A DNA stretch of 64,000 nucleotides from Flavobacteriales bacterium. GTDB taxonomy: Bacteria > Bacteroidota > Bacteroidia > Flavobacteriales_F > PHOS-HE28. The DNA lies in assembly GCA_017987895.1 (NCBI GenBank), contig JAGNSU010000007.1:1-64000 (forward strand), written 5' to 3'. A program made the translations under genes and the position numbers. Shown in pieces: positions 19,031 through 21,948 of the stretch; position 1 is the stretch's first letter, and each line of letters begins with the position of its first letter. The notes beneath the pieces are model-generated. The model searched no databases, was not told the origin of the DNA, and saw only the letters and a list, made by a program, of their open reading frames with translations.

Positions 19031-19045
19031 ACTTAGCGGTCGATC

Positions 19046-19089
19046 GAACGAACGGGCCTTTCGCGGATAACGCGGAGGCCCGTTCGTTC
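19046..19089 (+). terminator. Strong hairpin between T9SS cargo gene and crtD
   Basis: GAACGAACGGGCCT (19046-19059) and AGGCCCGTTCGTTC (19076-19089) are perfect 14-bp complements around a 16-base loop. The right arm runs into the crtD promoter motif (TTCCTTTG at 19087), so terminator and promoter share bases. Confidence 0.7.
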
Positions 19090-19094
19090 CTTTG
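19087..19094 (+). promoter_or_regulatory. crtD promoter -7-like element TTCCTTTG
   Basis: Differs from TAnnTTTG at one base and lies five bases before the crtD ATG, the spacing seen at several other genes here. Confidence 0.4.
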
Positions 19095-19099
19095 CGGCC

Positions 19100-20584
19100 A
19101 TGGCGAAGAAGGATCGTGCCGTGGTGATCGGCACCGGGGTAGGTGGGCTGGGTGCCGCTGTGCGGCTGGCCTTGAAGGGATATCGGGTCGATGCGTTCGA
19201 GGCGGCCCCCACCTACGGCGGCAAGCTGGCCGAGTGCTGGTTAGGGGACTATCGCTTCGACATGGGCCCATCGGTGTTCGCGATGCCACATCGCGTAGAG
19301 GAACTCTTCGAACTGGCAGGTGTGCCCATGGCCGGACACTTCCAATACCGCAAGCTCGAAAAGACCTTTCGCTACTTCTGGGGCGATGGCACCCGGGTGC
19401 AAGGCTGGAGCGATCCGCAGCGGTTGGCGGAGGAATTGGAGCGCGTGCTGCAGGTCCCACCGCAACGGACCCTGGACCATGTGCGCAGGGCGCATCGCTT
19501 GTTGGACACCACAGGCCGCACTTTCATGGAACATTCACTCCACCATGTGAAGACCCTCTGGAAAGGTGGTGTCGGCCGTGCGTTGTTCAACGCCCGCGTT
19601 CCCGAACTGATGGACACGCTGCACGAAGTGGACAAGCGCCAGTTCAAAGACCCGAAGGCCGTGCAGTTCTTCGATCGCTTCGCCACCTACAACGGCAGCA
19701 ACCCTTACACCACGCCAGGCATCATGCGCATGATCGCCGGGCTGGAACATGAGCGCGGACCCTTCTACCCCATTGGCGGCATGCGCACCATCGTCAGCTC
19801 GCTGCACGCGCTGGCCGAGAAGGTCGGCGTGCGCTTCCACTTCAACGCGCCGGTGGAACGCATCCTGCTCGACCCCACCAAGCGGAGGGTGACCGGTGTG
19901 CGTGTGAACGGCGCGGATCATGGGGCCGACGTGGTGGTATGCAACATGGACATCGAACCTGCCTACCGTAGGTTGTTGCCCGACCTGCGCGCGCCGGAGC
20001 GCACCCTGAAGCAGGAACGCTCCACCTCCGCGATCGTGTTCTATTGGGGCATCAAGCGATCGTTCCCGGAACTCGGCCTGCACAACATCTTCTTCAGCAA
20101 CGACTACCGTACTGAGTTCGCACAGCTCTTCGACAAGCTGGACGTAACGGACGATCCCACGGTCTACGTGAACATTACGAGCAAGGAGGACACACCCGAT
20201 GCGCCACCCGGCTGTGAGAACTGGTTCGCGATGATCAACGCGCCCTATCTCGCCGGGCAGGATGTGGACGCGATGGTGCGCCGCACACGTGCCGCGATCC
20301 TTGGCAAGCTCCAGCGGATCCTCGGTGTGGACATCGAACCCCTGATCGTAGTGGAGGACGTGCTGGACCCCGCGCGGATCCAGGAGCGCACACAGAGCCA
20401 TTTGGGATCGATCTACGGTACGAGCAGCAATAGCAAGTGGGCCGCGTTCCGCCGCCATCCGAACCAGCATCCGAAAGTTCGTGGCCTGCGGTTCTGCGGG
20501 GTCACCGTTCATCCAGGTGGTGGCATTCCGCTCGCGCTGCTCAGCGCAAAACTCGCGACGGAAACCCTGCCGGACGCACGATGA
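19100..20584 (+). CDS. crtD: Carotenoid desaturase, CrtD-type (1-hydroxycarotenoid 3,4-desaturase)
   Basis: 494 residues. N-terminal FAD-binding VVIGTGVGGLGAAVRLALKG, then FEAAPTYGGKLAE and RFDMGPSVFAMP. The central FATYNGSNPYTTPGIM and the SSTSAIVFYWGIKRSFPEL segment are typical of the Bacteroidota CrtD branch rather than phytoene desaturase CrtI. The C-terminal IYGTSSNSKWAAFRRHPNQ and GVTVHPGGGIPLALLSAK close the flavin site. CrtD introduces the 3,4 double bond into acyclic ends that have been hydrated at C-1. The stop overlaps the start of the next gene (ATGA), and that gene contains a CruF-like hydratase domain, which fits this order of reactions. CrtI remains a less likely alternative. 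Confidence 0.85.
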   Translation: MAKKDRAVVIGTGVGGLGAAVRLALKGYRVDAFEAAPTYGGKLAECWLGDYRFDMGPSVFAMPHRVEELFELAGVPMAGHFQYRKLEKTFRYFWGDGTRVQGWSDPQRLAEELERVLQVPPQRTLDHVRRAHRLLDTTGRTFMEHSLHHVKTLWKGGVGRALFNARVPELMDTLHEVDKRQFKDPKAVQFFDRFATYNGSNPYTTPGIMRMIAGLEHERGPFYPIGGMRTIVSSLHALAEKVGVRFHFNAPVERILLDPTKRRVTGVRVNGADHGADVVVCNMDIEPAYRRLLPDLRAPERTLKQERSTSAIVFYWGIKRSFPELGLHNIFFSNDYRTEFAQLFDKLDVTDDPTVYVNITSKEDTPDAPPGCENWFAMINAPYLAGQDVDAMVRRTRAAILGKLQRILGVDIEPLIVVEDVLDPARIQERTQSHLGSIYGTSSNSKWAAFRRHPNQHPKVRGLRFCGVTVHPGGGIPLALLSAKLATETLPDAR

Positions 20585-21948
20585 AGTCCCTGCCGCCGCT
20601 CTTCGTTCCCACGGCGATCCTCGTGATCCTCTACACCGTGGGCCTGGTGGGACTGGCGGGGCCATGGACCGAGGACCTCGTACACCTCACTCCCTACAAC
20701 TTGCTCGTGACCGCAGGTCTCCTTCTCGTGCAAGCACGGCCCGACGCGCGCACCTGGGCGTTCGCACTGCTTGTGTTCGTGAGCAGTTACCTCGTGGAAA
20801 TGCTCGGCGTACACACGGGTGTCATTTTCGGCTCGTACTGGTACGGCGATGTGCTCGGGATGAAGTTGTTCGACACACCCATGCTGATCGGCGTGAACTG
20901 GCTGATCCTGGTGATGAGCGTAGGCCCGCTGGTGGCGCGGTTGCACCTACCCGTTCCCCAAAGCGTGCTGGTGGCGGCATTGATCATGGTGGGCGTGGAC
21001 ATGTTGATCGAACCCGTGGCCATGCACCTCGGTTTCTGGTCGTGGGAGGATGATGTGGTCCCGCTGCGCAACTACATCGCTTGGGGCGCGGTGAGCGCCC
21101 TCTACTTCGCCTTGTTCTTCACCCTGCCGGTGAAGCGCGACAATGCTCTCGCGCCGGTGGTGTTGGGCGCACAGCTCTGCTTCTTCGCAGGCATCATCAT
21201 GGTGAGCGCGGCGCGCGGCATGGAACGCTTCACCTACCTCGCGCTCGATCTGTTCACACTGAGCTTCCCGCTGATCCGCAGCTTCGAGCCCAGGATACTT
21301 TACTGGCGGAAATGGCGCGGCCTCTTCACCGGCATCGGTGTAATGGCCGTGGTCTTTTTGATCTGGGACGCCATCTTCACGGCGAACGGGGTGTGGGGCT
21401 TCACGCCGCGCTATCTCACGGGTCCGCACATCGCGCGGCTGCCGTTGGAGGAAGTGCTCTTCTTCCTGGTGGTGCCCTATTCGTGTACGTTCATCTATGA
21501 AGTGATGCGCTACTTCGTGCGGCGTAATGTGCTCGGCCGCATCGCACGCCCCTTCTGCATGCTGCTGATCGCGGTACTGGTGGTAGTGGGCACTTGGCAC
21601 ATCGGGCGCATCTATACCGCGATCACCTTCCTCTGCGCCGCAGGCCTGCTCTCCTTGCACGTCTTCGTGCTAAGAAGCCCTTACCTCGGCCGCTTTCTGC
21701 TGGGCTATGCGGTGGTGCTTGTGCCCTTCGTGCTGGTGAACGGGATCCTCACCGGTACGCTGCTGGAAGAACCCGTAGTGTGGTATAACAATGCGGAGAA
21801 CCTCGGCATCCGCGTGGGCACCATTCCTTTGGAGGACAGCATGTACCTCCTCTTCTTCCTCCTGCTCACCATCACCTTCTACGAGCTGCCGCTGAAGCGC
21901 GCGCATGGTGATCTGCCGCCGCCGGTGGAAGGGCACGGGGCGGATTGA
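20581..21948 (+). CDS. Fused carotenoid 1,2-hydratase (CruF-like) and lycopene cyclase (CrtYcd-like)
   Basis: 455 residues from the ATG inside the crtD stop. Residues 1 to about 210 form a multi-helix CruF/DUF422-like domain (SSYLVEMLGVHTGVIFGSYW, YGDVLGMKLFDTP, IEPVAMHLGFWSWE, NYIAWG). Residues about 214-455 form a complete heterodimeric-type lycopene cyclase: a CrtYc-like half (FTYLALDLFTLSFPL, FLIWDAIFTANGVWGF, LPLEEVLFFLVVPYSCTFIY) and a CrtYd-like half (GTLLEEPVVWYNNAE, IPLEDSMYLLFFLLLTITFY). Together with CrtD it could convert a lycopene-type precursor into a monocyclic, 1'-hydroxylated carotenoid of the saproxanthin/myxol kind. No crtB, crtI or crtZ lies nearby. The cyclase half is very clear and the CruF half clear by motif. 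Confidence 0.9.
   Translation: MKSLPPLFVPTAILVILYTVGLVGLAGPWTEDLVHLTPYNLLVTAGLLLVQARPDARTWAFALLVFVSSYLVEMLGVHTGVIFGSYWYGDVLGMKLFDTPMLIGVNWLILVMSVGPLVARLHLPVPQSVLVAALIMVGVDMLIEPVAMHLGFWSWEDDVVPLRNYIAWGAVSALYFALFFTLPVKRDNALAPVVLGAQLCFFAGIIMVSAARGMERFTYLALDLFTLSFPLIRSFEPRILYWRKWRGLFTGIGVMAVVFLIWDAIFTANGVWGFTPRYLTGPHIARLPLEEVLFFLVVPYSCTFIYEVMRYFVRRNVLGRIARPFCMLLIAVLVVVGTWHIGRIYTAITFLCAAGLLSLHVFVLRSPYLGRFLLGYAVVLVPFVLVNGILTGTLLEEPVVWYNNAENLGIRVGTIPLEDSMYLLFFLLLTITFYELPLKRAHGDLPPPVEGHGAD

Follow-up and report, generated by a model that had tools for sequence, protein, structure and literature searches.

The 64,000-nt stretch of Flavobacteriales DNA analyzed here (hereafter, the window) raises a key question: does a single gene encode both a CruF-type carotenoid hydratase and a complete lycopene cyclase, and, if so, are both parts active in one chain that leads to a monocyclic 1'-hydroxy carotenoid?

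Gene structure and domain identity

Positions 20581-21948 of the window (+ strand) form an uninterrupted open reading frame of 455 codons, representing an intact cruF-crtYcd fusion gene, as indicated by its domain matches and by orthologous fusions in three other genomes (G033, G025 and G007). The one-gene combination of CruF with a complete CrtYcd, which had been proposed from the sequence alone, was confirmed by this open frame and by matches to Pfam and NCBIfam models. The CruF domain (residues 8-211; 20602..21213, +) was delimited by PF04240, TIGR03460, the helices of an AlphaFold2 (AF2) model and invariant residues, and it contains seven predicted transmembrane (TM) helices and aromatic-x-aromatic strands at residues 86-88 and 153-155. 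Residues 55-211 belong to the Pfam family Caroten_synth (PF04240; 86.3 bits, cut-off 25), while residues 22-207 match the NCBIfam CruF model TIGR03460 at 74.3 bits, well above noise but below its equivalog cut-off of 154.7; the other fused proteins tested likewise fall under this cut-off. Since TIGR03460 is an archaeal-type model that the fusions do not reach at the equivalog level, we refer to the first domain as a CruF-type hydratase by family and context. Thus, the earlier assignment to CruF stands at the level of the Pfam family but not at that of the equivalog.

A junction of three residues, R-G-M (212-214; 21214..21222, +), links AF2 helices 191-211 and 215-233. It is followed by the CrtYc half of the cyclase with its P288-L-E-E motif (residues 215-312; 21223..21516, +) and by the CrtYd half with a P416-L-E-D motif (residues 319-438; 21535..21894, +), both halves being supported by their invariant residues. 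The C-terminal part matches Lycopene_cyc (PF18916) at 124.1 bits, above its curated cut-off, in two stretches, the best in CrtYd (343-435), and CarR_dom_SF (TIGR03462) at 92 bits against a cut-off of 39.4, also in two stretches, the best in CrtYc (217-306). The presence of two stretches for each model indicates that both CrtYc and CrtYd are present.

The ATG of the fusion gene (20581-20583) overlaps the TGA stop codon of crtD (20582-20584), exactly as the sequence-only reading had it. A gene caller that prefers the longest frame would choose GTG 20437 (20437-21948, 503 aa), which lies deep within crtD; judged by homology, ATG 20581 is the better start. The upstream gene (19100..20584, +; 494 aa) encodes CrtD, a 1-hydroxycarotenoid 3,4-desaturase that passes the curated equivalog cut-off of NF042421 (540.8 bits, cut-off 500). 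Directly before crtD, window positions 19040-19097 carry an inverted repeat, AACGGGCC...GGCCCGTT, and then a promoter-like element, GTTCCTTTGC (19085..19097, +), which several relatives also have before crtD or before the cyclase and which is regarded as suggestive only.

Other carotenoid genes of the window's genome (G000) are located elsewhere. A cluster of crtI, crtB and a NUDIX idi-like gene occupies another contig (G000:C173, L171:7680-12488), with a sigma-factor-like gene that looks like ECF before it and a photolyase-like gene after it. The CrtI encoded there passes the bifunctional CrtID cut-off (702 vs 640 bits). A second CrtD-like desaturase (G000:C176:6209-7660; L170:6143-7675) lies away from the carotenoid genes; it is ~40% identical to the CrtD of the window, is also over the CrtD cut-off (519 bits) and has counterparts in G025, G033, G007, G023, G026 and G021.

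Fused, split and reduced loci in the genus

The family to which the window belongs consists of one genus, from which 45 genomes were compared. The same single-frame fusion was identified in three other metagenome-assembled genomes (MAGs) of the genus, G033, G025 and G007, with proteins 73-74% identical to that of the window; these copies are carried by contigs JAEUSW010000010.1, JADLBK010000229.1 and CALMPI010000009.1, labelled as Flavobacteriales MAGs. The locus order TonB-NadR-T9SS-crtD-[cruF-crtYcd]-pnuC-LRR-ribF-atpD is conserved in all four fused MAGs. In seven relatives (G009, G008, G015, G029, G037, G044 and G013), cruF and crtYcd adjoin each other as separate genes in different frames, with the cruF stop overlapping the cyclase ATG (TGATG/TAATG). 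This overlap indicates that a tight pairing of the two genes came before the fusion, and the relatives that live with two polypeptides show that the fusion is dispensable. In G044, the cyclase is itself split into two frames (L040:7711-8564), through a MAG error or because the gene is broken.

A count of bases across the junction revealed that the fused genes differ from the split ones by net +1 nt and have lost the stop. In the most likely reading, the fusion arose when a net insertion of one base into a coupled pair of genes removed the overlapping stop. M214 of the window's protein aligns with the start methionine of CrtYcd in the split relatives, so that the cyclase part does begin at the N-terminus of the free enzyme, and its ATG codon is the one at which translation of the ancestral cyclase started.

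Could this retained ATG still serve as an internal start, so that a separate cyclase is made and the two proteins work as before? The window's gene retains the codon, as does G173, one of two fused genomes from a second family (see below), but it has been lost in G033, G025 and G007 and in G432, the other fused genome of that family. Moreover, the start in the split relatives sits on the stop codon, as in coupled re-initiation, and this stop is gone in the fusion. We therefore regard internal initiation as unlikely, although it is the least improbable of the alternatives to two active domains in one chain.

To which point in the history of the genus can the fusion be assigned? In the maximum likelihood tree of the cyclase, the four fused genes form one clade with G023 and G026 (99/89), in which the window's gene branches first and G023/G026 are nested inside (97/89). 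Both crtD and CruF are absent from the otherwise syntenic locus of G023 and G026; the G026 contig reaches the upstream neighbor, while the G023 contig begins inside it. The cyclase of these two genomes nevertheless carries an extra N-terminal membrane-helix stretch with the length of the last CruF helix and shared G-x-E junction residues. In the simplest reading of these sequences, the fusion arose once, in the ancestor of the clade, and G023/G026 later lost crtD jointly with most of CruF. We infer this loss step, as the leftover helix is too weakly similar to CruF to score alone. The position of G020 next to G026 in the cyclase tree (branch 2.2) is probably a long-branch artefact.

CrtD of the window's type was found beside CruF in 11 of the 11 CruF-bearing genomes among the 45, and cyclase-only relatives whose neighbors were checked possess neither crtD nor CruF at the locus. 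Cyclase-only relatives also have a GTTCCTTTGC-like element 5' of the cyclase, as though the promoter had outlasted the loss of crtD and cruF.

Conservation of the two domains

Another important question is whether both domains of the fused chain are still active. Among the residues invariant across 45 CruF sequences, the window's protein retains E73, GxxTG, FG.Y.Y, P100, W107, D140, E144, W153, W155, N164 and W168. The retained invariants are D263, W272, F274, P288, E290 and E291 in CrtYc and T391, Y402, R411, P416, E418 and D419 in CrtYd. The P-x-E-E (P288/E290/E291) and P-x-E-D (P416/E418/D419) motifs open the helix after each strand and vary little or not at all across 127 sequences. With few exceptions, the fused proteins keep the invariants of both families. 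Among the fused genomes, dN/dS ranges from 0.09 to 0.37 in the CruF part and from 0.11 to 0.20 in the cyclase. Taken together, the invariant residues and purifying selection indicate, at the level of sequence, that both domains work.

The alternative is that the cyclase alone is active and that the CruF part has decayed to a membrane anchor or an assembly scaffold. The faster evolution of CruF (dN between the window's genome and the other fused genomes of 0.27-0.30, against 0.13-0.15 for the cyclase) would agree with such decay, as would the lone helix kept in G023/G026 after the rest of CruF was gone. However, the cross-family invariants are kept in the fused proteins, and their core is also kept in a fused protein of Deinococcus deserti (see below); dN/dS of the CruF part is as low as ~0.09 between G033 and G007/G025; and its presence or absence tracks that of crtD, its expected partner. 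This makes a decayed CruF domain improbable, slightly more so than internal initiation.

Finally, an assembly or frameshift artefact was rejected as practically impossible: although the net difference of one base between fused and split genes has the size of a sequencing error, the same junction frame is present in four MAGs from different projects, whose junction bases have themselves diverged, so that the doubt raised about the junction in the sequence-only reading is removed by the three further MAGs.

Independent fusions outside the genus

Fusions of CruF with CrtYcd were also found in a second Bacteroidota family, in 2 of 36 genomes (G173, 446 aa; G432, 443 aa). Many relatives of these genomes carry cruF and crtYcd in tandem, in several cases in-frame with a single stop between them. 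G173 and G432 form their own clade (100/100) far from that of the window and thus represent an independent fusion. Both genomes encode a CrtD over the cut-off. The domain order read from the window therefore recurs in MAGs of the genus and in a second family, and the fusion is not unique. Among 395 genomes of the class and 395 of the phylum Bacteroidota searched for single joined matches, no fusion was detected beyond the two families.

A protein with the reverse order, CrtYcd-CruF, is encoded on plasmid 2 of D. deserti (WP_012695258.1, 482 aa; NC_012529.1 171863-173311; L207:559-2007, L210:11864-13312). It matches TIGR03462 at 125.9 bits in two stretches and then PF04240 at 128.9 bits, although its annotation reads only 'carotenoid biosynthesis protein', with the cyclase unmentioned. 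The surrounding cluster contains crtB, crtI, CrtD-like, CrtO-like, glycosyltransferase and acyltransferase genes. The reverse order was not found in 390 Bacteroidota genomes. Thus, the hydratase/cyclase pair has been joined at least twice more outside the window's clade, suggesting that hydration and cyclization go together.

Structure model and possible common origin of the domains

The AF2 model (72 sequences) was obtained with a mean pLDDT of 95.2 and a pTM of 0.87. It comprises 14 long helices (7+7 TM), with an ordered joint of three residues (212-214) between the last CruF helix and the first helix of the cyclase. Loop charges (17 positive and 6 negative inside, 8 and 15 outside) fit an N-in/C-in topology, which would place the four conserved loops on one side of the membrane. 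Four strands of three residues are present in the model at aromatic-rich triplets, YWY 86-88, WSW 153-155, WGF 272-274 and VWY 400-402, and a proline that is invariant or nearly so (P100, P161, P288 and P416) lies between each triplet and the helix that follows. The model thus suggests a helix, aromatic-x-aromatic strand, proline and helix repeat common to the hydratase and the cyclase.

A comparison of the CruF and CrtYcd profiles gave no significant homology (lowest P, about 0.012-0.015). The top alignment nonetheless matches one motif, GxxTG..Y..LG..P, in the two families; short of significance, the common repeat is a lead and not a result. Solved structures of relatives were not found by sequence, Foldseek gave a weak match to Insig only (E 0.14, TM 0.44 of target), and its search against viral models yielded nothing useful. 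If the domains are homologous, each would be built of two such repeats and would protonate one and the same C1,2 double bond; the only difference would lie in what traps the cation, water in one and the C5,6 double bond in the other.

The repeated fusions, two in Bacteroidota and one in reverse order in Deinococcus, can be read as Rosetta-stone evidence that CruF and CrtYcd form a physical complex wherever both occur. According to this tentative proposal, which we consider somewhat more likely to be wrong than right, the complex, and not a built-in preference of CrtYcd for one ring, would make the carotenoid monocyclic, and the hydratase and cyclase domains may share a distant ancestry.

Proposed function

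With a probability of roughly 0.8, the sequence evidence favors one bifunctional hydratase/cyclase with 14 TM helices, born of a coupled gene pair, that together with CrtD would give a monocyclic 1'-hydroxy carotenoid; this remains the most likely reading of the CruF/CrtYcd fusion beside CrtD, in agreement with the sequence-only reading. The two reactions, hydration and cyclization at opposite ends of one C40 chain, are assigned from the families. The N-terminal CruF domain would act on lycopene or gamma-carotene, adding water to the C1',2' double bond of one psi end, and the C-terminal CrtYcd domain would close a beta ring at the opposite end. CrtD, from the overlapping upstream gene, would then desaturate C3',4' at the hydrated end, with a 1'-hydroxytorulene-type monocyclic carotenoid as the end product.

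Substrate preference is the usual explanation for why such a carotenoid has one ring and one hydroxyl and not two of either. A covalent tie would set a 1:1 ratio and bring the two sites next to each other, which would be expected to keep double cyclization (to beta-carotene) and double hydration from winning; substrate channelling by the fusion is hypothetical. Joining on at least three independent occasions and in both orders provides a testable case for the hydratase and cyclase acting as a unit, and the fusion would allow monocyclic 1'-hydroxy carotenoids to be produced with just one gene for both steps.

Comparison with known systems

A full-text literature search, with subscription journals mostly outside its reach, returned no description of a CruF-CrtYcd fusion, which agrees with the earlier statement that none was known. 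The path proposed for the window has a demonstrated counterpart in Nonlabens spongiae, in which CrtY alone leads to beta-carotene, the addition of CruF leads mainly to 1'-hydroxy-gamma-carotene and the addition of CrtD leads to 1'-hydroxytorulene, i.e., hydration, cyclization and desaturation; however, this CrtY is of the CrtY/CrtL type, and the genes are separate (PMC11855829). Algoriphagus sp. oki45 (flexixanthin pathway) shares crtD, cruF and crtYcd and a predicted monocyclic 1'-hydroxy carotenoid with the window, but its cruF and crtYcd are separate (221 and 246 aa) (PMC10784355). Among the fusions cited in PMC2889829, the lycopene cyclase CrtYcd of Sulfolobus and Algoriphagus KK10202C combines CrtYc and CrtYd in one chain, and the fungal CrtYcd-phytoene synthase joins CrtYcd to another carotenoid enzyme, both without a CruF domain. 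The D. deserti protein resembles that of the window in carrying CrtYcd and CruF in one polypeptide, within a cluster that has crtB, crtI and a CrtD-like gene, and differs in its reverse order and independent origin. Both domains are known enzyme families, and their combination is new to the searched papers and recurrent in genomes.
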